A DNA stretch of 16,048 nucleotides, taken from assembly GCA_016840465.1 (NCBI GenBank), contig JAEOSH010000051.1, forward strand, positions 1 to 16,048, read 5' to 3'. Below are positions 1,986 through 15,388 of the stretch, piece by piece. The notes beneath the pieces were generated by a model. The model was not told where the DNA came from, did no database searches, and was given only the letters and a program-made list of their open reading frames with translations. The DNA comes from Candidatus Baldrarchaeum yapensis (GTDB taxonomy: Archaea; Asgardarchaeota; Baldrarchaeia; Baldrarchaeales; Baldrarchaeaceae). The position numbers and the translations under genes were made by a program. Each line of letters begins with the position of its first letter. The first letter of the stretch is position 1.

Positions 1986-2063
1986 GCGGCCGTCGTCTAG
2001 TCTGGTCTAGGACACCGGCCTCCCGAGCCGGTTACCCGGGTTCAAATCCCGGCGGCCGCACCA
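1986..2063 (+). tRNA. tRNA-Gly(CCC), intronless, CCA encoded
   Basis: Acceptor GCGGCCG (1986-1992) pairs with CGGCCGC (2053-2059), then discriminator A at 2060 and CCA at 2061-2063. Anticodon stem CCGGC (2015-2019) pairs with GCCGG (2027-2031), enclosing the loop C-U-CCC-G-A with anticodon CCC at 2022-2024. The T-arm is CCGGG-TTCAAAT-CCCGG. No intron is needed for a normal cloverleaf. The T-arm and much of the acceptor stem match those of the neighbouring tRNA-Pro. Confidence 0.93.
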
Positions 2064-2134: not shown

Positions 2135-4321
2135 ATGTCTTCTTATGCGAAGAAGGTAAGGGAAATTGCAAGCCTGATGAAGCACAAAGAGAGAATAAGA
2201 AATATCGGCATAATAGCGCATATTGACCATGGAAAAACAACACTAACAGACATGTTGCTTGCAGCCGCAGGATTGCTATCGCCAGAACTAGCGGGTGAAG
2301 TAAGAGCTCTTGATTACTTAGAAGAAGAGCAGAAGAGAGGAATAACCATAAAGACGGCAAATGTTTCGCTAGTTTATTCGTATAAGGGTGACAAGTACCT
2401 AATAAATTTAATAGACACGCCTGGGCATGTGGATTTTTCCGGAAAAGTCATGCGGGCTCTTCGCGCAATAGACGGCGCCATTGTTGTTGTAGACGCCGTA
2501 GAGGGAGTAATGGTACAAACAGAAATCGTTACACGGCAGGCACTGATAGAAAGGGTGAAACCCATACTTTTCATTAATAAACTTGATCGCTTGATAAGGG
2601 AACTGAAGTTACCGCCTGATAAGATGAGAAAGAGACTTGAGAAGATCATAAGAGATTTTAATTCTTTGATAAGCATGTACGGTGAGCATCCGTATCGTGA
2701 GAAATGGAGAGTTAGCGTACCCGATGGAAGCGTAGTGTTTGGTAGCGCCCTTCATAAGTGGGGTTTTACTGCCGAGATCCTAGAAAGAAAAGGACTAAAA
2801 GTCGGTGACATAATAGAGTTTTATAACAAAGACGAATTAAATGAACTACAGAAATTGTTACCTGTTCACGAAGCAGTACTCGACGCAGTAATAAAGAATC
2901 TTCCCGACCCCATTTCTGCACAGTCTTATAGAATTCCAAAGATATGGCCTGGAAATCTAAATTCCGAAATTGGACATGCACTTTTGAATTGTGATGAAAA
3001 CGGACCAACGGTAATTTGTGTTACGAAAATACTGGTTGATCCTCACGCTGGAAACATAGTTGTCGGTAGAGTTTTCTCTGGTGAAGTTCACGAAGGAGAT
3101 CCCCTATATGCAATTGTAGCTGGAGAGAAAGCACGAGCATATAAGGTCTCGTTATTCATGGGTCCACATCGGTATCAGATTTCCTCGGTACCCGCTGGTA
3201 ATATAGTTGCATTTGGAGGATTTAATGAGGTAAAGGTTGGAGATACAATTGTTGAGGAGAAGTTTAAGGACTTTTGTATCCCATTTGAGACAATAAAGTA
3301 TCTTGTCGAGCCCGTGGTTACGGTCTCATTAGAGCCGGAGAGAACCGCACAACTGGAAAAAATGTTACATATATTAAAGGAATTGGAGTTTCAAGATCCA
3401 AACCTATCAATTAAAATAAATGAAGAGACCGGAGAGTGCCTATTGTCAGGATTAGGGGAACTTCACTTGGAAATAACAATAAAAGAGTTGGAAAAACAAT
3501 GTATCAGCGTAATGGTATCACCACCCATCGTATCGTTCAGAGAAAGCGTAAAGAGAGTTGGTTCGGAGGTTGTTGAGCAGAGTAGTAATTTGAAGAACGA
3601 AATAAAGGTTCGTGCGCGTCCTCTTAGTGAAGACTGCATAAGACTGCTTTCTGAGCATGTAATTCCTAAACTTTCGCGAAAAAGGAGCAAAGAAGGAAAG
3701 TTTGTCGTGTCTAGGCGAGTATTTGAAGTGTGTCAGTTGAGTGGAAAAATATGGGCCATAACTCACCATCCAAACATTCTGGTGTCTCATATACCAGAAA
3801 CTAAAGAAATTTTATCGGTTAAAGATCAAATCATAGAGGCGTTTGAGGATGTTTGTAAATCTGGGCCTTTGTGCGGGGAAACTCTGAGGGGGGTTCTTCT
3901 TGAGATACTAGACTTAAAAGTTAGTAGGGATCCTTCAGAAAGGGATCCCCTGCAAATAATTCCAATGGCATACAAGGCATTCATTAAGTCACTCAAGCAA
4001 GCCGATCTAACATTATTAGAGCCAATTTACCGGATACAAATAACCGCACCACAGGATGTGATCGGTAAGGTGCTGAATTTGCTAAATCAGCGAAAAGGAG
4101 ATGTCGAAAGACTTGAAAGCGACCCATCATCCCCATTAATAATTTTAACTGGATATATCCCTGTCAGGACAAGCTTTGGTTTATCGACTGAACTTAGATC
4201 GAGAAGTTCAGGTCGTGCTTTTCTTCAAATGTCATTCTCTCACTGGGCGGAGGTCCCATCGGAATCAAGAGAACAAATAATAAGGGAGTTAAGAGCGCGG
4301 AGAGGAGAATTGTATGAATGA
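2135..4321 (+). CDS. Elongation factor 2 family GTPase lacking the diphthamide histidine
   Basis: EF-2 drives GTP-dependent translocation on the ribosome. The chosen start is ATG 2135 (728 aa), because GGTG lies six nt upstream. An in-frame GTG at 2123 would add four residues. G motifs (ATG numbering) are complete: P-loop AHIDHGKTT 28-36, RGITI 68-72, DTPGH 94-98, NKLD 148-151 and SAL near 209. Domain II (GEVHEGDPL), domain III (SGLGELHLE), domain IV (GPLCGETLRGV) and domain V (EPIYRIQI) follow in the usual order and length. In the domain IV tip loop, where archaeal EF-2 normally has HEDAIHRG followed by QVIPA, this protein has SRDPSERDPLQIIPM. The diphthamide histidine aligns with Glu602 (codon 3938-3940). 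The gene is AT-richer than its EF-1alpha neighbour and stands alone on the + strand, outside the ribosomal cluster. It may be an aEF-2 paralog or the only EF-2 of a lineage without diphthamide, so no symbol is given. Confidence 0.93.
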   Translation: MSSYAKKVREIASLMKHKERIRNIGIIAHIDHGKTTLTDMLLAAAGLLSPELAGEVRALDYLEEEQKRGITIKTANVSLVYSYKGDKYLINLIDTPGHVDFSGKVMRALRAIDGAIVVVDAVEGVMVQTEIVTRQALIERVKPILFINKLDRLIRELKLPPDKMRKRLEKIIRDFNSLISMYGEHPYREKWRVSVPDGSVVFGSALHKWGFTAEILERKGLKVGDIIEFYNKDELNELQKLLPVHEAVLDAVIKNLPDPISAQSYRIPKIWPGNLNSEIGHALLNCDENGPTVICVTKILVDPHAGNIVVGRVFSGEVHEGDPLYAIVAGEKARAYKVSLFMGPHRYQISSVPAGNIVAFGGFNEVKVGDTIVEEKFKDFCIPFETIKYLVEPVVTVSLEPERTAQLEKMLHILKELEFQDPNLSIKINEETGECLLSGLGELHLEITIKELEKQCISVMVSPPIVSFRESVKRVGSEVVEQSSNLKNEIKVRARPLSEDCIRLLSEHVIPKLSRKRSKEGKFVVSRRVFEVCQLSGKIWAITHHPNILVSHIPETKEILSVKDQIIEAFEDVCKSGPLCGETLRGVLLEILDLKVSRDPSERDPLQIIPMAYKAFIKSLKQADLTLLEPIYRIQITAPQDVIGKVLNLLNQRKGDVERLESDPSSPLIILTGYIPVRTSFGLSTELRSRSSGRAFLQMSFSHWAEVPSESREQIIRELRARRGELYE

Positions 4322-4361
4322 AATGCTAATTATTATATCACGTCAAGAGGGGTAAATGTCA

Positions 4362-4409
4362 GGGACAAAAATTAAAATACCAGAAAATGCTACTTTAAAT
4401 CAAAAATTG
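4362..4409 (-). terminator. T-rich stretches after rps10
   Basis: Read on the - strand, the region downstream of the rps10 stop contains two T-runs (near 4397-4409 and 4366-4377). This agrees with archaeal oligo-T termination of the cluster before it meets the convergent EF-2 gene. No hairpin is evident. Confidence 0.3.
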
Positions 4410-4464
4410 CAATATCTAGCGTGGAAATCGAAACCAAATAATACTCTCAGCAGATTTCACGTTG

Positions 4465-4767
4465 TTATAATTCTATTTCCACGAAGACCTCCGGTGGAAT
4501 CTTTATACGCATTATTTGTCGTAGCGTTCTTTCTTCCGCGTCTATTATTATCAGTCTTTTATGAATTCTCAGAGAGTAATGATCCCATGTTTTTGAACCC
4601 TCGCCACAGGGAGATCTGCGTACTGGCACCTTGAGTTTTCTAGTTGGCAAAGGAATAGGTCCCGAAATGGAAACGCCGGTTCGTTTGGCTATCGAAACTA
4701 TTTGACTTGCAACTTGTTCGAGTTGCCGTGGGTCTGTGGATGTTAACCGGATTCTCGCTTTAGACAT
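4465..4767 (-). CDS. rps10: 30S ribosomal protein uS10
   Basis: At 100 aa this is a normal length for archaeal uS10, a head-domain protein of the small subunit near the 3' domain of 16S rRNA. Diagnostic stretches are [11 protein letters not shown] near the start, the loop [20 protein letters not shown] (about 36-55), [14 protein letters not shown] (about 60-73) and the C-terminal [16 protein letters not shown] lies about eight nt upstream of the ATG. It follows EF-1alpha by about 34 nt on the same strand, the widely conserved tuf-rps10 pair of archaea, and is the last gene of the cluster, convergent with the EF-2 family gene. Confidence 0.96.
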
Positions 4768-4801
4768 CAGTTATTACCTCAAAAAATTGTTGATTGAGGG
4801 T

Positions 4802-6103
4802 TTATTTCGCTGGCGTGACCTCTTGTACTATTCCGACGGCGACCGTTCTACCCATGTCTCTAATAGCGAAGCGTCCGAGAGGCTTTATTTCCTCATACTT
4901 CTCGAGCACTATCGGTTTCAGTGGAACGAATTTCACTATCGCGGCTTCTCCCTGCTTTATTATCGATGGATTCTCTTGTACCACCTGACCTGTTCTGGGA
5001 TCCAGTTTTGCTATCAACTGCTCAAACCTCACTGGTGTGTGCGCGGTGTGTGCATGAAGGACCGGGGTGTAACCAGCCGCTATTGCCGTGGGATGCCATA
5101 CGACGAATATTCTTCCTATGAATTCTTTCACAACCGTCGGGGGATTTGTTGGATGTCCTGCGACATCTCCTCTTCTGATGTCCTTTCTTGACACTCCCTT
5201 TACGTTAAATCCTATGTTATCGCCAGGTTCTGCCTGTGAGATTCTCTCATGGTGCATCTCGATGGACTTCACTTCTCCCTTTATCCCTGGGGGCTCGAAT
5301 ATTACAGTATCGCCCTCCTTAAGAACTCCGGTCTCAACTCTACCAACGGGAACTGTTCCAACACCGGTTATCGAGTAGACGTCTTGGATAGGAATTCTAA
5401 GCGGCTTGTCTATGGGCTTCGGTGGCACTTCGAATGTGTCGAGAGCCTCCACGAGTGTTGGTCCATCGTACCATGGCATCTTATCGCTCTTTGTGACAAT
5501 ATTGTCACCTGTCCATGCGGAGACGGGAACGAATGGCACCTTCTCCAGTCGATAACCTATTGTTTTAAGCAGAGCTGAAACTTCCTTCTTTATCTCCTCG
5601 TATCTTTCCTTGCTCCAGTTCACTGATGGGTCGTCCATCTTGTTCACTGCTACGACTATCTGATCAACACCGAGGGTCTTAGCAAGATAAGCATGTTCTC
5701 TTGTCTGCCCACCTGGTCCAATTCCCGCCTCGAATTCTCCCTTCTTGGCGGATACTACAAGCAGTGCACAGTCTGCCTGGCTGGCACCTGTAATCATGTT
5801 CTTTATGAAGTCTCTATGTCCTGGGGCGTCTATTATCGTGAAGTAGTACTTTCTGGTCTCGAATCTCCAGAACGATAGGTCTATCGTTAGTCCTCTTTCC
5901 CTTTCTTCCTTAAGTTTGTCCATTATCCATGCGAACTTGAAACTCTCCTTACCTAGTGCTCTTGCCTCTTCTTCGAATTTTCTTAGTGTTCTCTCATCCA
6001 CGTATCCAGTAAGGAATAATAGGTGCCCCATTAGGGTCGATTTCCCGTGATCGACGTGCCCGATGACTACAAGGTTCAGATGAGGCTTCTTCTCAGAGGC
6101 CAT
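4802..6103 (-). CDS. tuf: Translation elongation factor EF-1alpha (aEF1A)
   Basis: This GTPase delivers aminoacyl-tRNA to the ribosomal A site. The chosen start is the ATG at 6101-6103 (433 aa, [10 protein letters not shown]), because GGAGG at 6111-6115 lies seven nt upstream. The earlier in-frame ATG at 6107-6109 is only one nt from that site. The G domain has GHVDHGKST (about 15-23), [28 protein letters not shown] and the SAWTGDN G5 loop. Domains II and III follow, with [11 protein letters not shown] and the C-terminal [15 protein letters not shown]. Nothing is truncated. It sits between rps12 and rps10 with rps7 absent, and has its own likely TATA box. The gene symbol follows common archaeal usage. 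Confidence 0.97.
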
Positions 6104-6180
6104 CGCCATCCCTCCGAAGATGTTACTGTTATGGTGTGTACCAAAATGGTTGAGAGGCTTAGAATACGAATCATCAAAGG

Positions 6181-6190
6181 GAATATAAAT
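6181..6190 (-). promoter_or_regulatory. TATA box upstream of EF-1alpha
   Basis: The - strand reads ATTTATATTC in the 121-nt gap between rps12 and tuf. A start about 25 nt downstream (near 6160) would give a leader of roughly 55 nt, so tuf-rps10 can be expressed separately from rps12. Confidence 0.45.
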
Positions 6191-6224
6191 TCTTACATTG
6201 GGTGTCTACATCGGTGGTTCGCAA

Positions 6225-6668
6225 TTATCTAAGGGGTTTTTCCTTCTTACCCTCCAAAAGGGCCTCAAGCGAGACGCCGTTAACTTTAACAACCTTATAC
6301 TTAACTCCTGGGAGGTCTCCATAACTTCTTCCTTTTCGTCCGCCAATGCCCTCTATTATGACCTCATCATGCTCATCTATGAAGAGCAATCCACCGTCGC
6401 CTGGCACAAATGCCGTGACCTGCTTCCCGTTCTTCACAAGTTGCACTCTAACGCACTTTCTTAATGCGCTGTTCGGCTGGCGAGCCTCTATACCTACCTT
6501 CTCTATAACTATGCCCCTAGCTTGAGGAGCTCCCTCAAGCGGATCGGTTTTTATTCTAAGTCCAAGCATTCGGCGTTTATAATAGTAATCCTTCCACCGG
6601 AATTTCTTTCTCTTCATTATTAGTTTTCTAGCCGCAAATTCTCCGACAGGCGATTTTGAACCGGGCAT
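6225..6668 (-). CDS. rps12: 30S ribosomal protein uS12
   Basis: This is a decoding-centre protein of the small subunit. At 147 aa it has the usual archaeal/eukaryotic (S23-like) length. Diagnostic stretches are [16 protein letters not shown] (44-59), the decoding loop [15 protein letters not shown] (63-77), the second loop FVPGDGG (87-93), [11 protein letters not shown] (100-110) and the basic C-terminus GKKEKP. The GAGGT about eight to ten nt upstream supports this ATG. In most archaea rps7 follows rps12 directly; here the next gene is EF-1alpha. Confidence 0.97.
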
Positions 6669-6765
6669 TATTCATTACCTCGATCATACTTTTGGAGGAA
6701 ACATCATTAACGCATACGGGTGATTATCCTGAATGATTTCGGTATAGTACATAACACGACTTAGG

Positions 6766-6777
6766 GAATTTAAAGGT
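6766..6777 (-). promoter_or_regulatory. Likely TATA element upstream of rps12
   Basis: The - strand reads ACCTTTAAATTC, a good archaeal TATA with an adjacent purine/pyrimidine BRE-like context. It lies within the 279-nt gap (6669-6947) between nusA and rps12. The predicted start is near 6743, giving a leader of about 75 nt. I see no gene or clear RNA in the rest of that gap. Confidence 0.4.
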
Positions 6778-6947
6778 GTATGATCAGTGACCGTATGTGA
6801 AGTAACTTAAATCAAGCGGAAGAGTTTTGTGTGGAGTCGAAATCGGAGGCGTAATATTTAGTAGCCGATCCGATTAGGACGAGAGTGCACTGCCGATCTT
6901 CAGATACGATTCTATGATCAAATTCAACTCTTATTCTCCGGAAAAAA

Positions 6948-7394
6948 TTACTCTATTATGACGTCATCTATACCAAAGTGACGTTTTGCAAGTATTCTCG
7001 CCTTAGCAACGTTCTTTCCATTCTTTCCGATAGCAAGTCCCTTGTATTTTGGATCAACAGTTACTATTGCCACCTTTCTACCATCTTTGCGCTCAGTTAT
7101 GTGTACAGACTTTATACGTGCAGGCATGAGGGCATTTTTTATAAATTCTTCGGGCTTATCGGAGTACTCAACAACATCGATATCCTTTTTGAGTATCTGC
7201 TTTATCCTTTTTATATTCTCGCCGCGTTTCCCAATAGCGAGTCCCAGGTCACCTGCTTTTACCACAAAGATCAAACGGTTCATATTTTCGTCAATTACAC
7301 AGTCCTTTACGAGGGCTCTTGTGAAGGTTTCGAAGAGCGATATATACCTAATTTCCTCCGTTGTTAACCTAATTTTACTACTAGTCATGCTCAC
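6948..7394 (-). CDS. nusA: Archaeal NusA-like KH-domain transcription factor
   Basis: This short archaeal NusA lacks the bacterial N-terminal and S1 domains and consists of two KH RNA-binding domains, thought to act in elongation, termination or rRNA transcription. Here 148 codons carry KH1 with GLAIGKRGENIKRI (51-64) and KH2 with GLAIGKNGKNVAKA (119-132). The GTG at 7392-7394 overlaps the TGA of rpl30e (GTGA), with GGAG five nt upstream. An ATG at 7386-7388 would shorten it by two residues. The overlap implies translational coupling to rpl30e. The position after rpoA and rpl30e is the conserved archaeal arrangement. Confidence 0.95.
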   Translation of the reverse strand: MSMTSSKIRLTTEEIRYISLFETFTRALVKDCVIDENMNRLIFVVKAGDLGLAIGKRGENIKRIKQILKKDIDVVEYSDKPEEFIKNALMPARIKSVHITERKDGRKVAIVTVDPKYKGLAIGKNGKNVAKARILAKRHFGIDDVIIE

Positions 7395-7699
7395 TCACTC
7401 TCCTCTACAAGTTTTAATATATCGGAATCTCCCGGATCTATAATAGCTAATGAGGAAACCATGAACGGTTTGCCGCATAGGGCTCCTAACTCAACACTAG
7501 AGCCCTCAAAAACATATAATGGAGTTTTGGAGAGTTTGCAATAATACATGACTTCTTGTTTTATTTCCTCCGGCGCTTCTTTTGCCAAAATTATCAATTT
7601 CGCTCTTCCTCGTCTTATCGTGTCAAGAGTACGCTTGGAGCCCAATATCACCTTACCGGTTTTTAAGGCCATTTTTAATGATTTCTCAAGGTTTACCAC
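7391..7699 (-). CDS. rpl30e: 50S ribosomal protein eL30
   Basis: A 102-aa member of the L7Ae/L30e fold, which binds RNA and belongs to the large subunit. Recognisable features are the N-terminal LEKSLKMALKTGKVILGSK, then RGRAKLIILAKEAP and YCKLSKTPLYVFEGSSVELG. It starts at GTG 7697-7699, two nt after the rpoA stop codon, with GGAGGTGA in the last codons of rpoA as ribosome binding site. The GTG is therefore well supported despite being a minor start codon. It ends inside the nusA start. Confidence 0.95.
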   Translation of the reverse strand: MVNLEKSLKMALKTGKVILGSKRTLDTIRRGRAKLIILAKEAPEEIKQEVMYYCKLSKTPLYVFEGSSVELGALCGKPFMVSSLAIIDPGDSDILKLVEESE

Positions 7700-7701
7700 C
7701 G

Positions 7702-10700
7702 CTATTCACCTCCACTTTTCTTCACTAGGGGCGTCATGAACAACTCCAACATCCCAGTACCAAGGGGGATCTCCTGACCGATTATTATATTTTCTATCAC
7801 TCCTTGCAACTTATCTACTTCTCCACGTGCGCTCGCATCTAGCAACTGCTTAACCGTAACCTCAAATGCGGCCCTCGCAAGGACGCTTGGTTTCTCACCG
7901 CTAATGCCATGCCTACCTATTTGTCTAATCTCACCAGTTGCGGTCATTATGTCAGCCACTAGCATGATATGTCTAACATCCACGTCAAGACCCTGTTCTC
8001 GCAGAACGCCCATAGCTTCCTCTATTATTGCGGCCCTTGCTGCTTCTATGCCCAGTACCTCCGCAATTTCATGGATGTTATTTGTTTTTGTTCTCCGTTT
8101 ATCAACTCCGGGCACCCTTAGTACTTCATCCAAGTTCGAACCTTCAGTCTCTAAGACATATTCGACCTCGCCATCTCGCATCTTCTTGCTTATCACAACT
8201 CTAGTTATGTTTTTAATTCCCTTGAGATGATAAGATCTTACTTTCTCGACTAACTTCTGAAGTGCAGTGATTGATCTAGCTTCAGGGGTCTTAGGGGTCA
8301 CAATTATGAAATTATCCCTCACCTCAACCTGTACGTCCTTTATTCGTGAGAGTTTCTTCGCAACCTCGTCAATCGTCAATCCTCTGTTCTCCAATAGATG
8401 TTCATTTACTAAGATTACTACGCACTCGTTTGTTAGATCCATTCTTATATCATCAGCGATGGACTCCACTTTTGTCATCTCAATATTCCTTGCTACCTCT
8501 CTGGCCTTTTTTTCGTCTGTTCTGTAACTCTCTTCCAGATAAACTGTCATTGTTGGTGTTGAAGGATTCCTTCTTGCGTCAACTATCTCTATAAGTCGCG
8601 GAAGTCCCAAAGTCACGTTAAGTTCTCTTACACCAGCAAAGTGGAATGTTCTTAGGGTCATTTGTGTGCCGGGCTCGCCTATCGATTGCGCAGCCACGGT
8701 ACCAACGGCCTCTCCAGGCTCCACCTGTGCTAGGTTGTAGTATTTTGTGACTTCTTTAAGTAGAGTCTCAAAGTGCTCCTTGCTGATTCCGACCCTCGAT
8801 GCGAGATCTCTCAACTTGTCTATTAACGATTTAGGAAGAACTCCCTCCCTTTCCAAGGCCTCAAGTCTTTTGATAACATCTTCGTCTACCTTTCTTCTTT
8901 CGGGGACTATTTCGTCCAATAATTGCGGTAGCACTTTCTCTAGAATGGCGTCAACATTTACTGCCGACCCGTGATCGCTCTTCATAGGATCTATGCCATC
9001 CTCGCCATACCTAAACTGGACTATTTGCCCATCGGCTGTTCTGACGGTACTGTCATATTCCACCTTTATGTCCTGCAATGCATTTATCAACCGTCTTTGC
9101 ATGTAACCGCTTATCGAAGTTCTAACAGCCGTATCCACGAGTCCTTCTCTTCCACCCGCGGCGTGGAAGAAGAATTCTATCGGATTCAGTCCTCTTCTAT
9201 AACTCGAGAAGACGAACCCTCTGGCGCCAGCGCTTAACCCATACTCGCGCCTGAAGTGTGGCAACACGCGATCTCTATATCCTCTCTTTATTCTCTCTCC
9301 TCTGATGGACTGCTGTCCGAGACATGCTGCCATTTGTGTGATATTCAACTTTCCTCCTCTTGCCCCTGTCTCCGCCATTATGACAGCAGCGTTGTTAAGT
9401 TCCTCTCCAAGGTACTCTACTGCTATCTCACCCGCCTTGTCTCTGGCCTCCTGCAACACTTCCATGATCTTTAACTCAAGCGTCTCCTCAAGCGTCTTTC
9501 CTGGAAGCCTTTCTAAGCGTCCCTCTTCATAATCCCTTATTAACTCATTAACTCTTTCCTCGGCCTCGCTCAGTATCTTCTGGATTTTCTCAATTATTTC
9601 GCTCGGAATTTCTACATCATCGAGACCCATTGTAAAGCCTTTCCTTGAAATGTGCTCTATGAGCATCTTGCCTAATTTGTCCAAAAACTCTCGTGCAGCA
9701 TCATATCCGTGGTCCTTCGTTATCCTGTGAAGTACGCTGTTAGGCACGAACGCCCCTATTCCCTTTTCGTCTATTGAGCCGCAGAGAAGCTTGCCGTCTC
9801 TGATGACAACATATGCATCGTATGGGCAATCGGTCTCTTTACAACCCTCACGGCAACCCCTGCAAATGTTAGCTCTAAACGAGATATTTATCCCCTTAGG
9901 AAGTAGCAAGCTGAAGATTTGTTTTCCTGTCCAGAGTTTTACCGGCTTCTTTATTGCGGGCTCTGGAAGGTCTCCCTTATAGCCAGCAACTGTCAACAGT
10001 TGGCAAACATCATCCTTTGTGAAGAGGGCATCCTTTCGGGTAAGCAGATATGCCGATGTTATATAGTCTTGAATGGCTCCAATGATGGGGCCTCCGTATC
10101 TTGGAGAAAGTATTTGATTCTGAACTCTCATTAATATTCTCGCTTCCGCCCTTGCCTCTTCGCTCTGAGGAACGTGAAGATTCATCTCGTCTCCGTCAAA
10201 GTCAGCATTGTACGGTGGGCAAACGCAAAGATGTAATCGGAAGGTCCTATACGGCAGGACCTTCACTTCGTGTGCCATTATTGACATCCTATGTAAAGAT
10301 GGTTGCCTGTTGAACAATACGATATCTCCATCTCTCAAATGCCGTTCAACTATGTATCCGGGCTCTAGCGACTCAGCGATCGCCTCTCTATCCTTAACGA
10401 ATCTCAGGTCTATTCTTCTGCCATCTGTCCGTATGATGTAATTTGCACCCGGATACTGATCCGGTCCTCTTTTTACAAGCATCTTTAACTCTTCGATATT
10501 CCACTCGGTTACCTTCTCGGGAACGGTCAATATCTTTGCAACGAACTCAGGAACACCAACCTCATTAATACTCAAATTAGGATCAGGAGAAATGACAGTC
10601 CTAGCGGAGAAATCTACACGTTTTCCTGATAGATTACCTCTAAATCTTCCCTCTTTACCCTTTAACCTCTGACTTAGCGTCCTAAGAACCCTTCCTGATC

Positions 10701-11577
10701 TGTGCCTTGCGGGAGGAATTCCAGAAACCTCGTTATCGAAATATGTGATCACATGATACTGCAATAACTCCCATAAATCGTCGATGATTATCTGAGGTGC
10801 TCCAGCCTCGATGTTCTCCTGCAACCTGCTATTTATTCGTAGGATATCAACTAACTTATGTGTAAGGTCGTCTTCGGATCTCACACCAGATTCTAATGTT
10901 ATACTCGGCCGTACTGCTATTGGAGGTACTGGAAGTACTGTTAGGATCATCCACTCTGGTCTTGCGCGTTTGGGATGGATCCCAAGAAGGTAACAATCAT
11001 CATCAGGAATTCTTTCGAATCTATCTCTTATCTCCACGGGAGTGAGCCTTCTAAGTCCCTCTGGGGTCTCCTCGTAAAAGGTCGTTGGTTTTTCAAACCT
11101 TATCTTGTATTGCTCGGCACCGCAATGAGGACATTGTTTAACATTTGCAACCTTCTTTGCAACCTCCTCGGAAATCTCCTGCGCAAGGATAGGCCATTTA
11201 TCCATGTTTTCGCGTATTCTCTTCAAATACTGATTTATAACGTCCTGGGGTAATAAAACTCTACTACAAACTCTGCAGATGCACTTAAGGATCCTATTTA
11301 TTATCTTGGCGAAACCAACATGAATAACGGGTCTTGCAAGCTCTATATGTCCAAAATGACCTGGACATTCTCCCATTCTGTTACCGCATGTACCGCATCT
11401 TTGTCCAGGTTCGATGGTCCCGAGACGGGGATCCATAAGCCCAGATTCAATAGGAGTACCATCTTCATTATATGTATCCGGAGTAAATATTCTCGCTACG
11501 CTCATTTTTCGAATCTCATCTGGGGAGAGAATTCCAAACTCTATTGCACTAATCCTCTTAGGCACACGTAAACTCAT
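7702..11577 (-). CDS. rpoA: DNA-directed RNA polymerase subunit A, undivided A'+A''
   Basis: The largest RNA polymerase subunit, holding the catalytic Mg. The 1291-aa frame begins with A' features: zinc ligands C61, C64, C71 and H74, a second set C101, C104, C149 and C152, and the catalytic [10 protein letters not shown] at 457-466 (D459, D461, D463). A third Cys cluster lies at C572, C575, C579 and C584. [20 protein letters not shown] (738-757) and the bridge-helix region near 800-830 follow. The normal A'/A'' break would fall around residue 870-890, but the frame continues without stop, start or frameshift into A'' ([20 protein letters not shown] at 958-977, trigger-loop region) and the jaw/C-terminal part. 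A G-rich AGGGGGGA lies about five nt upstream of the ATG, overlapping the rpoB stop. Fused A is reported for Thaumarchaeota/Aigarchaeota and some other archaea, whereas most archaea split it. Confidence 0.97.
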
Positions 11578-11588
11578 AAAAATCCCCC

Positions 11589-14500
11589 CTAAGTTCTCTC
11601 CTCTAATCTGAGTCTAGGAGCTATACATAACGACATTAGTTCTTGTAAGAGTAACTTGAACGCATAGGATGTAATTACCGGGGCAAACTCTCCATCCTCA
11701 CCATGAATTGGACAGATGTACTTATTTCTATTTCTGTCGTAGTAAGCTATGAATCCACATTTCTCACATACTATTATTTCGACTTTATCGGATTCCTCGA
11801 GCAATCTATCCTTAAGTAACATTGCCGCTCCATATCCGACTAGGCAGTCTCTTTCCATCTCTCCAAATCTAAGTCCTCCCTCCCTCGCTCTTCCTTCAGT
11901 TGGCTGTCGAGTTAGTATCTGAACAGGTCCTCTTGCTCTCGCGTGGATTTTGTCAGCAACCATGTGGTGCAATTTCTGGTAATAAACAACGCCTATGAAG
12001 ATGTCAGCCTCAAACTTCCTTCCTGTGATTCCGTCATACATTACCTCCCTTCCGTTATACTTAAAGCCCAGACGTTGCAATTCCGCCATTAGGTCTTCCA
12101 CCTTCTCTCCATAGAACGGTGTTCCATCGACCTTTCTACCAGCTAGCGCTGCAACTTTACCTGCAATGGACTCTATAAGTTGCCCAAGGGTCATTCGTGA
12201 TGGAAATGCATGCGGATTTATTATCAGATCGGGAACTATGCCGTCCTCCGTAAATGGCATGTCTTCCTGCGGCACTATCAGTCCGATCACTCCCTTCTGC
12301 CCATGTCTCGATGCAAATTTGTCGCCAAGTTCAGGGATTCCAAGCCTTCTGACCTTCACCTTCACAAGTCTATTACCATCAGCTGTCTGTGTTAGTATAA
12401 CAAGATCGACGATTCCCTCCTCACCATGCCGCAGGCTTATTGAGGTTTCCCTTCTTGCGCCTGGTCTTACCTCGAATTCGGCATACTCCTCTAAGAATCT
12501 CGGAGGGCTCGTTCTTCCTATAAGCACATCTCCTCCCTTAACTTCAAGCTCAGGCTCTATTATCCCATCCTCAGCCAAACACCTGTACACGTATTCTGCT
12601 CTGTAGCCCCTTACGTCTCTAGGCGGTATCTCGAAGCGATCTTCCTGTCCTCCTGGGAATTTCCTCTCTTCTGCCTCGTAACATCTGAATGTGGTCGAGC
12701 GAGCAAGTCCTCTTTCGATAGAAGCCTTATTTATTATGAGAGCGTCCTCAATGTTATATCCCTCATACGATAATACTGCAACTATGAAGTTCTGTCCTGC
12801 TGGTCTCTTATCGAACCCTGTTACCTCAGCCCCCTTCGTTGTAACCAGAGGTACCTGCGGGTAGTGAAGTACGTGGCTTCGTGTGTCAACTCTTAATTTA
12901 AAGTTAGCTGCGGCCAAACCAAGAGCCTGCTTTGCCATACCTGCTTCATAGGAATTCCTCGGAGACTGGTTATGCTCAGCATACGGTATTAAGGAGGCGG
13001 TAACCCCTAAGATCATAGGAGGGTATATCTCGAGATGCGTATGCTGTTCTGTGAGGTCTTCAGGGTCAAGTGCTATGTACGCGTTTTCTTCCTCCTCCGC
13101 ATCAAGGAATTCGACTATTCCATGTTTCACGAGATCCGAGAACTTCCACTCCCCCTTTCTTATCTTCTCCACATGTTCTGGCCTTAATTTCGGTTGTCCG
13201 TTTTCAACGATGATAAGTGGTCTGCGCGCGCGTCCCGAGTCACAGTTGACATAAACTTCCTTTACACCACTAGTTTCATAATAAGCGACGTTCACCTCGG
13301 GGTCTATATGACCCCTCCTTCTCAATTGTCTAATCTGAATTGCCAACTGTTGCCCATCGGGGTGGTATCCAATGAGCCTGCCGTTAAGGAAAACTCTCGC
13401 ATAAGTGTTCTTCTCGGAGCTGGTTTCCTCAGGTGGCTTTACACCCAGTTCATATAGTTTTGACTCTATAGTTGACTCGTCAATACCAACGGATATGCAA
13501 ACCATGAGCGCAAGGTTCTTAACAAGTCCGCAGTTTGGCCCTTCAGGGGTTTCATTTGGACAAATCTTACCCCAATGTGTCGCATGTAAGTCTCGTGCCT
13601 CAAAATGAGGCTGACTTCTACTTAATGGTGATACTATTCTTCTAAGGTGACTAAGGGCGGACATGTAATTTGTTCTATCAAGCAATTGACTAATTCCTGC
13701 CTTTTGTCCAGGCCAGTTTCCTGTGGCAAGTGCATGCCTAAATCTTTCAGTAATAACATCTGCCCTTACAACAGTATGTAAACTAATTTTCTTAGACTTG
13801 TCAACCCCCTTCTCTATCTGGTACTTTATGTCCTTGCATAGGTTGTTAAACGCGTATCTGAACAGAGTTTCTAGAAGATCTCCGACAAGTCTCAGCCTCT
13901 TGTTTGCATAATGATCCTTATCATCCGGTTCTCGTCTTCCTAGTACAAGCTCCAGCAAACGGCGCGTCATTAACGCCAAAAAATGAGCCTTCTTAATGCG
14001 GTCTTCTTTGGACGTTCCAACATGTGGCAATAGATACCTATCCAAAATCTGCTCAGCGCGTTCTATTCTTCTCTCTCTTGCCTGTCCAAGTGCGACTCTC
14101 CTACCTATATAATCAAGCGCGTCCTTTATCGTCTTTTCAGGATTTCTGGGATCATACACAACTTTAGCTGATCGTGCTTCTTCCATTGATGGTATGAGTT
14201 GGGTTTCAATTTCGGTATCCCCCTCAGCAATCGCCTCTATGATTTGCTTGTCCGTAACTAAGCCCAATGCCCGCATCATTATTACTAAGGGTATCTTTGT
14301 TGGAAGGGACGGCATGGATACCTTTAATGTTCCATCACGAGATCGTTCTATACTCACTGGTGCTCTAAATCCCCGTCCACTGGAGAATACTTTAGCAACA
14401 TGCGTCGCAGTACTTCCACTTGGCGCTACTTCGACGATAATTCTATTCGGTGCTAGATCCTCTTGAGTTACGATAACCCTTTCAGAGCCATTTATTATAA

Positions 14501-14993
14501 AGTAACCTCCGGGATCATTAGGATCCTCCCCCGCCTCTATCAACTGATCTGGCGTCATCTTTGACAAATAGCACTTACATGACTTCAACATTATTGGGAT
14601 TCTTCCTATAAAGACCTTCTCGGTCTTCCCCTCTTTGACCATTCCTGTTTCATTATCGACATATATTGGGGTCATTTCAAGATAAACTGGCGCAGCATAC
14701 GTAAGGTTTCTAATTCTGGCCTCCATGGGATATATTTTTCTCGTAGAACCATCTGCCTCCCTTATCATTGGCTCTCCAACTTCTATCTTCCCGAATTTTA
14801 TGTATTTTAGTGAAGATCCCTCCTCTTCACGTGCCTCTATCTCTATCTGTCCAATCTCGTCGACAATTGCCTGCATCCCTCTAGTTATGAACGCATTAAA
14901 CGACTCCAATTGTTGCTGTACCAATCCCATCTCTTTAAAGTAAGCCTTCATAACCTCCCAACGATCCTCCGTAGTGAGATTAATCCTCTGCAT
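11589..14993 (-). CDS. rpoB: DNA-directed RNA polymerase subunit B (undivided)
   Basis: The second-largest RNA polymerase subunit, in one piece as in Crenarchaeota, Thaumarchaeota and relatives (many euryarchaea split it into B' and B''). The chosen start is ATG 14993 (1134 aa), preceded by a GGGTGGGTG element about eight nt upstream. An in-frame GTG at 15005 has no such site. Landmarks are [17 protein letters not shown] and [18 protein letters not shown] near residues 455-490, [17 protein letters not shown] near 750, [14 protein letters not shown] near 900, and the C-terminal zinc ribbon C-x2-C...CPIHG near 1085, whose last ligand may be His in place of Cys. It ends with [12 protein letters not shown] and a short tail. 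It is separated by about 17 nt from rpoH and 11 nt from rpoA, so it is clearly in one operon. Confidence 0.97.
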
Positions 14994-15010
14994 ACAGACA
15001 CCCACCCAAC

Positions 15011-15280
15011 TTATTTCTCCCTGCCTTTCTCAATAACATATCTATATGCAACATGAGTACCCGCAGTAGGACTTTTTCTTATAACTTTAATTATGTCTCC
15101 AGGTTTTGCACCAATTATTTGGACTATGGGGTCAGAATCCTTTATCCACGGAAGTTGTTCGGGCTTTATGTTTAAATTTGCTAGCAGTTTCCTCGCCTCC
15201 CTCTTACTGAGAATAATATGCTCTGGAACAAGTTCATGTTCGAGTATTTCGACCATTAACACCCTCTTTTTACTACTCAT
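15011..15280 (-). CDS. rpoH: DNA-directed RNA polymerase subunit H (Rpb5 C-terminal homologue)
   Basis: Small assembly-domain subunit of the archaeal enzyme, equivalent to the C-terminal domain of eukaryotic Rpb5. The start is taken at ATG 15278-15280 ([13 protein letters not shown], 89 aa), giving the normal family length with GGTGA eight nt upstream. A longer frame from 15313 would add eleven non-homologous residues. Diagnostic features are [23 protein letters not shown] and the C-terminal [23 protein letters not shown]. It is the first gene of the rpoH-rpoB-rpoA-rpl30e-nusA operon, a conserved archaeal order. Confidence 0.96.
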
Positions 15281-15388
15281 CTGATAACTCACCAATCCGA
15301 GTATGGGTATCATTCATATCATCATATGCGTGTACCCGAGAATCAGAATGCATGTACCACATCATACCCGTTATGGATATCTTTCCTT

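Follow-up and report, generated by a model that had tools for sequence, protein, structure and literature searches.

The window, by which we mean the whole stretch of 16,048 nucleotides analysed here (contig JAEOSH010000051.1 of Candidatus Baldrarchaeum yapensis), carries a gene that is almost certainly the EF-2 paralog of an organism devoid of dph genes. Its product is a protein of 727 amino acids of the aEF-2p type (positions 2135..4318, + strand) in which glutamate replaces the histidine that is normally converted to diphthamide. A second EF-2, encoded elsewhere in the genome, keeps this histidine, and the two proteins are worn in opposite parts. Taken as a whole, the reading that we favour, by some distance short of certainty, is that the window copy would be an auxiliary ribosome-dependent GTPase and that the second copy would carry out translocation.

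A complete EF-2 with an altered tip

The reading frame is uninterrupted from the ATG at 2135 to the stop codon at 4316-4318. Each of the five EF-G/EF-2 domains (GTP_EFTU, EF-G_D2, EFG_III, EFG_IV and EFG_C) scores above its cut-off in a Pfam search. With TIGR00490, the model for aEF-2, the window copy reaches 731.5 bits, less than the curated cut-off of 738.45, which a class-sister copy (L005) exceeds with 815.7 bits. The AlphaFold2 model of the window copy (pLDDT 85.9, pTM 0.77) finds its nearest fold in Methanoperedens EF-2 (6u43; Z 55, rmsd 2.6, 707 residues), and the protein is, as modelled, a whole EF-2 fold with a changed tip.

The P-loop (AHIDHGKTT, 2216..2242, + strand; motif table and sequence), the switch I region (QKRGITIKTANV, 2330..2365, + strand) and the switch II region with its catalytic histidine (DTPGHVDFSGKV, 2414..2449, + strand) are canonical, the switches according to the motif table. 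During translocation, the domain IV tip of EF-2 normally reaches into the decoding centre, where it protects the codon-anticodon duplex by means of diphthamide. In the window copy, tip loop A (VVEQSSNLKNEI, 3569..3604, + strand) has lost the consensus of canonical EF-2, xxGKSPNKHNRx, as scored in the motif table. Tip loop B (VSRDPSERDPLQIIP, 3920..3964, + strand) contains the altered diphthamide site, Glu602 (codon 3938-3940).

Glutamate at the diphthamide position

The domain IV loop of the window copy reads ...LKVSRDPSERDPLQIIPM. In pairwise alignments with solved archaeal EF-2s, VSRDPSERDPLQIIP matches, without gaps, VHEDPAHRGPAQLYP of Sulfolobus (8hl1), VHEDNVHRGPAQIYP of Pyrococcus (5h7j) and LHEDAVHRGPAQVLP of a methanogen (6q2d), which places Glu602 at the position of the modified histidine. 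Residue 602 again falls in the diphthamide column of an alignment of 54 sequences. A preliminary description of this DNA had made the same assignment and had noted that the flanking landmarks GPLCGE, QIIPM and EPI are intact; the alignments bear out the former, and all three landmarks are found in the window copy. Inspection of the tip loop reveals no further histidine, and the alignment to archaeal EF-2s shows none elsewhere in the loop at the modified position, a case that the description had named as speaking against it.

The three sister genomes carry Met, Met and Leu in the diphthamide column (HKNPEMRDPSQ, HKNPEMRDSSQ and HKNPELRDSSQ), so that within this class of four genomes Glu occurs only in G000, to which the window contig (C94) belongs. 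Given these sister residues and the unbroken frame, Glu602 is neither due to chance nor the product of a local sequencing error. That the Glu codon reflects a fault of sequencing or assembly, or that the contig was assigned to the wrong genome, might be entertained for a genome split into 100 contigs, but it is most improbable. Indeed, besides the sister residues and the intact frame, the RpoB encoded on the window contig is closest to that of the same three genomes (76% identity, against 49-70% for eight other genomes of the phylum), indicating that the contig is rightly binned.

The DNA of the loop contains AGGGATCC twice (3926-3948), with a spacing of 15 bases, coding for RDP-SE-RDP. The sister genomes have the second RD(P/S) only. 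The first RDP, absent from them, may be a chance change or a short duplication.

Absence of the diphthamide pathway

The gene had been proposed to work without diphthamide. In support of this, the recommended search for dph1/dph2, dph5 and dph6 gives nothing in G000, which is 96% complete: profiles for Dph1/2 (PF01866), Dph5 (TIGR00522) and Dph6 (PF01902) have no match in this genome, while four archaeal controls are matched by each. PF01866 and TIGR00522 are missing from all four genomes of the class and are present in 21 and 24, respectively, of the 227 genomes of the phylum. One sister genome, G003, encodes a PF01902 (Dph6-family) protein (C6:19645-20289, L156; 145.6 bits), the other dph genes being absent. 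In that genome the family may serve a different function.

A second EF-2 that keeps the histidine

The second EF-2 of the genome, which the preliminary description had advised to look for, lies at G000:C32:11018-13120 and scores 684 bits with TIGR00490. The loop of this C32 copy (VHEDPAHTTYYQISL) retains the histidine (HEDPAHT), but the next residue is changed from Arg to Thr, giving HT for HR. Its counterparts in the sister genomes have the loop VHVDPAHTGMGQIAP. Other oddities of the C32 copy are TTYYQISL after the histidine, DTPGHISF and SGIDPLQIE. The presence of a second, histidine-bearing EF-2 in G000 refutes the suggestion that the window gene is the only translocase of a lineage devoid of diphthamide. 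The other option of the earlier interpretation, a paralog with a changed role, fits. The loss of the SPNKHNR loop, the sharing of the arrangement across the class and most of the phylum, and the canonical descent of the window copy had been left out of that interpretation.

Two EF-2s are found in each of the four genomes of the class. Both types, hereafter the window type and the HT type, occur in most of the sampled dph-lacking families of the phylum, some incomplete genomes having yielded one. The dph-bearing genomes examined (G004, G041, G053, G074 and G076-G078) contain a single canonical EF-2 with HEDxxHRG and no HT type. The combined pattern of EF-2 and dph genes points to a phylum that is probably Asgard.

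Some EF-2 genes of the phylum have peculiarities of their own. In G226 the two types are back to back in divergent orientation (L175:3-2120, - strand, and 2563-5334, + strand). The EF-2 paralog of another family (L022:847-3618; G226:C137:3217-5295, + strand) harbours an intein within the P-loop (HVDHGK/CVSGDSKV...VHN/TT; Pfam Intein_splicing, 1.4e-26). The EF-2 genes of dph-bearing G071, G073, G074 and G159 are interrupted at one common point, DTPGH(V), by a short insert (L168:8939-9283, - strand; also L015, L019 and L020). In G074 it is about 29 nt long and contains a CGAGCC-GGCT-GGCTCG hairpin. Interruptions of this kind suggest an archaeal intron of very small size.

Mirror-image wear of the two copies

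According to the motif table, the window-type copies mostly retain the P-loop, switch I (RGITIKTAN), switch II (DTPGHVDFSGKV) and the SGxGELHLE motif of domain III, but have lost both tip loops; in the window copy itself, KSPNKHNR has become EQSSNLKNE and HEDxxHRG has become SRDPSERD. Conversely, the HT copies retain KSPNxHN and HxDPAHT in most families and have diverged elsewhere (RGITIFTSV, DTPGHISFTGEV and SGIDPLQIE). Compared with L011, a canonical EF-2 from a relative that has dph genes, the window copy is 64% identical in domain G, 52% in domain III and 24% in domain IV, as against 50%, 35% and 42% for the C32 copy. Judged from sequence, one copy is thus without tip loops but canonical in its switches and domain III, and the other shows the opposite pattern.

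The window-type copies of other families are more decayed than the window copy, with variable loss of the domain IV/V matches, and those of G176 and G177, which belong to one family, still have His in the diphthamide column (AEHRSPS); on both grounds, the window-type copies need not all share one function. The G174 copy, of the same family, has Asn in this column. Across the class, Arg603, which adjoins the site, and the length of the loop are retained.

Descent and tempo

A tree of 33 sequences was computed under a site-mixture model and rooted with euryarchaeal outgroups only, eukaryotic EF-2s being left out; a larger quick tree was also built. The window copy groups with the canonical EF-2 lineage, with Sulfolobus outside and the dph-bearing relatives inside (support 98/97 and 100/99), and in the 33-sequence tree the HT copies make up a clade of their own (100/100) on a long stem (0.74). 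A clade uniting both types is rejected (AU p 5.5e-5), ruling out a recent duplication inside the dph-lacking group. Trees of domains G-III alone and of domains IV-V alone give the same split as the whole protein. This agreement means that the mosaic look of the copies does not come from recombination between them. The grouping of all window-type copies is weakly supported (68/67). The window copy is not firmly joined to its class sisters, and the clade that would unite them is not rejected (AU p 0.10). These trees, which have long branches, place the window copy within the lineage of canonical EF-2 and make the C32 copy a divergent branch.

Between G000 and G001, identity is 54.5% for the window type, 75.2% for the HT type, 82.4% for uS7 and 76% for RpoB. 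Estimates of dN and dS (YN00) are quoted for the close pair G001-G003 only, as dS is saturated between families; they amount to 0.028 and 0.24 for the window type, the HT values being 0.012 and 0.318. The identity gap and a dN far below dS indicate that the window type evolves faster yet remains under purifying selection. Its rapid evolution, along with the variable loss of domain IV/V matches in other families, might be taken to mean that the gene is a decaying relic without function. This is very improbable given an open frame of 727 codons, intact catalytic motifs, the low dN between sister genomes and the presence of the gene in 4/4 genomes of the class. The end branches of the window copy measure 0.39 for domains G-III and 1.29 for domains IV-V, about three times as much, which makes the domain IV-V half the relaxed part of the protein.

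Because the window copy keeps its GTPase and large-subunit parts and has dropped both tip loops, it is probably not the main translocase. The C32 copy, by virtue of its slow evolution and retained loops, is the better candidate for this task. The reverse assignment, in which translocation falls mainly to the window copy and a special role to the histidine-bearing C32 copy, draws on the position of the window copy in the canonical lineage, on its higher score with the aEF-2 model (731 versus 684 bits) and on its canonical switches and domain III, regions in which the C32 copy differs. We consider it quite unlikely, since the C32 copy changes as slowly as a housekeeping protein (75% identity to its sisters, close to the 76% of RpoB, against 54% for the window copy), and the C32 type retains the decoding-centre loops across the phylum, whereas the window type has elsewhere lost far more. 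Still, the C32 copy could itself be the specialised one of the two, in view of HT for HR and of TTYYQISL, DTPGHISF and SGIDPLQIE.

Genomic context

Just upstream of the window EF-2 gene lies a tRNA-Gly (CCC) gene (1986..2063, + strand; ARAGORN). Convergent to the EF-2 gene is a cluster of ribosomal and RNA polymerase genes (uS10, EF-1A, uS12, NusA, eL30, RpoA, RpoB and RpoH; 4465..15313, - strand) recognised from their open reading frames, with family matches for NusA and L30e. This cluster links the contig to its order. The window and its sisters have no conserved neighbourhood of the window-type gene in common among the 20 regions compared, and no neighbouring gene was found that hints at the role of the window copy.

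The classical gene order is uS12-uS7-EF-2-EF-1A. Although the EF-2 gene is convergent to uS10, the locus is not taken here as a remnant of the str operon, as uS7 is on contig C61 and the sisters hold the EF-2 gene elsewhere. The interval between uS12 and EF-1A (6109-6225) is devoid of uS7 (locus L179 on C61), and the classical order is thereby broken. Partial open frames occupy both ends of the contig (2-544 and 15514-16047). A Pfam search with the latter frame gives no match. The two may be fragments of a repeated gene, similar to a transposase, where the assembly was cut short.

Proposed role of the window copy

Another proposal sees in the window copy a second, conditional translocase with a redesigned tip, Glu taking the place of diphthamide, employed under certain growth or stress conditions. 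The five domains and complete set of GTPase motifs, the predicted EF-2 fold, and the preservation of Arg603 and loop length in the class are all compatible with this. On the other hand, both tip loops are lost, conservation is lowest in domain IV (24% identity to the canonical protein) and the branch lengths of the two halves (1.29 for IV-V versus 0.39 for G-III) are the opposite of what is expected for the tip of a translocase. We therefore regard a conditional translocase as unlikely, though less so than the reverse assignment discussed above.

The auxiliary GTPase that we favour could have arisen as follows. After the loss of Dph, the histidine-bearing C32 copy would have performed ordinary translocation with an unmodified histidine. 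The window copy, a descendant of the canonical lineage, would no longer have been needed to hold the codon-anticodon duplex. It would have kept a working GTPase and its large-subunit side, while its domain IV tip would no longer be able to make the standard contacts with the decoding centre. Such a protein might act on large subunits or on ribosomes that are idle, for instance in aIF6 release or in recycling. When it lacks diphthamide, Sulfolobus aEF-2 is active as a GTPase on ribosomes and frees aIF6 from 50S subunits in a GTPase-dependent manner (PMC8024482). In eukaryotes, release of this kind is assigned to the EF-2 relative EFL1 (PMC8024482). A large-subunit or recycling task for the window copy, which we infer by analogy, would be the simplest interpretation and is offered tentatively. 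The division of labour would resemble the branching of EFL1 from EF-2 in eukaryotes.

Relation to known EF-2 relatives and significance

The second EF-2 of dph-lacking archaea, aEF-2p, was reportedly described by Narrowe et al. in 2018 (doi 10.1093/gbe/evy154). As restated in PMC10307638, many archaea that lack dph genes have an additional EF-2 from which key residues are absent. As far as that account describes aEF-2p, the window gene is of this already described kind: the genome is devoid of dph and has two EF-2s, and this one is without the diphthamide residues (Glu602, SRDPSERD). Two features set it apart, in that the paralog of this class is much less decayed than those of most other families and, within the class, Glu is peculiar to G000. 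With canonical aEF-2 (8hl1, 5h7j, 6u43) the window copy shares the five domains, the GTPase motifs, the fold and the lineage, but it has neither the diphthamide histidine of HxDxxHRG nor the SPNKHNR loop and falls just below the TIGR00490 cut-off.

EFL1 is a eukaryotic EF-2-like GTPase that releases eIF6 together with SBDS. Its proposed likeness to the window copy, as an EF-2-derived GTPase specialised for the large subunit, is one of analogy. The window copy matches EFL1 (5anb) with 274 bits, far more weakly than EF-2 (632 bits), and orthology is not indicated. Snu114/EFTUD2, the EF-2 relative of the spliceosome, is an EF-2-derived GTPase without a translocase role. It matches the fold of the window-copy model with a Z of about 45, but belongs to another complex and has a large N-terminal extension, and here, too, orthology is not indicated.

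Added here to the published pattern are the Glu variant of this genome, the loss of loop A along with loop B, the opposite wear seen in the two EF-2s and the assignment of the window type to the canonical lineage. To our knowledge, diphthamide was long held to be universal in archaea and eukaryotes. Diphthamide-free lineages with two oppositely worn EF-2s lend themselves naturally to testing the purpose of the modification and of each part of EF-2. The mirror-image pattern makes two questions accessible to experiment: which copy is the translocase, and how an EF-2 devoid of its tip acts on the ribosome. In this group, EF-2 should be used for phylogeny with caution unless the two lineages are separated. 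It is possible, though we hold it doubtful at present, that in dph-lacking archaea of Asgard type the roles were swapped, the divergent histidine-bearing EF-2, changed in its switches and domain III, having taken over translocation and the canonical EF-2, still a GTPase but deprived of both decoding-centre loops, having become a new ribosome factor. If so, a canonical EF-2 would have turned into an archaeal counterpart of EFL1 along with the loss of diphthamide.
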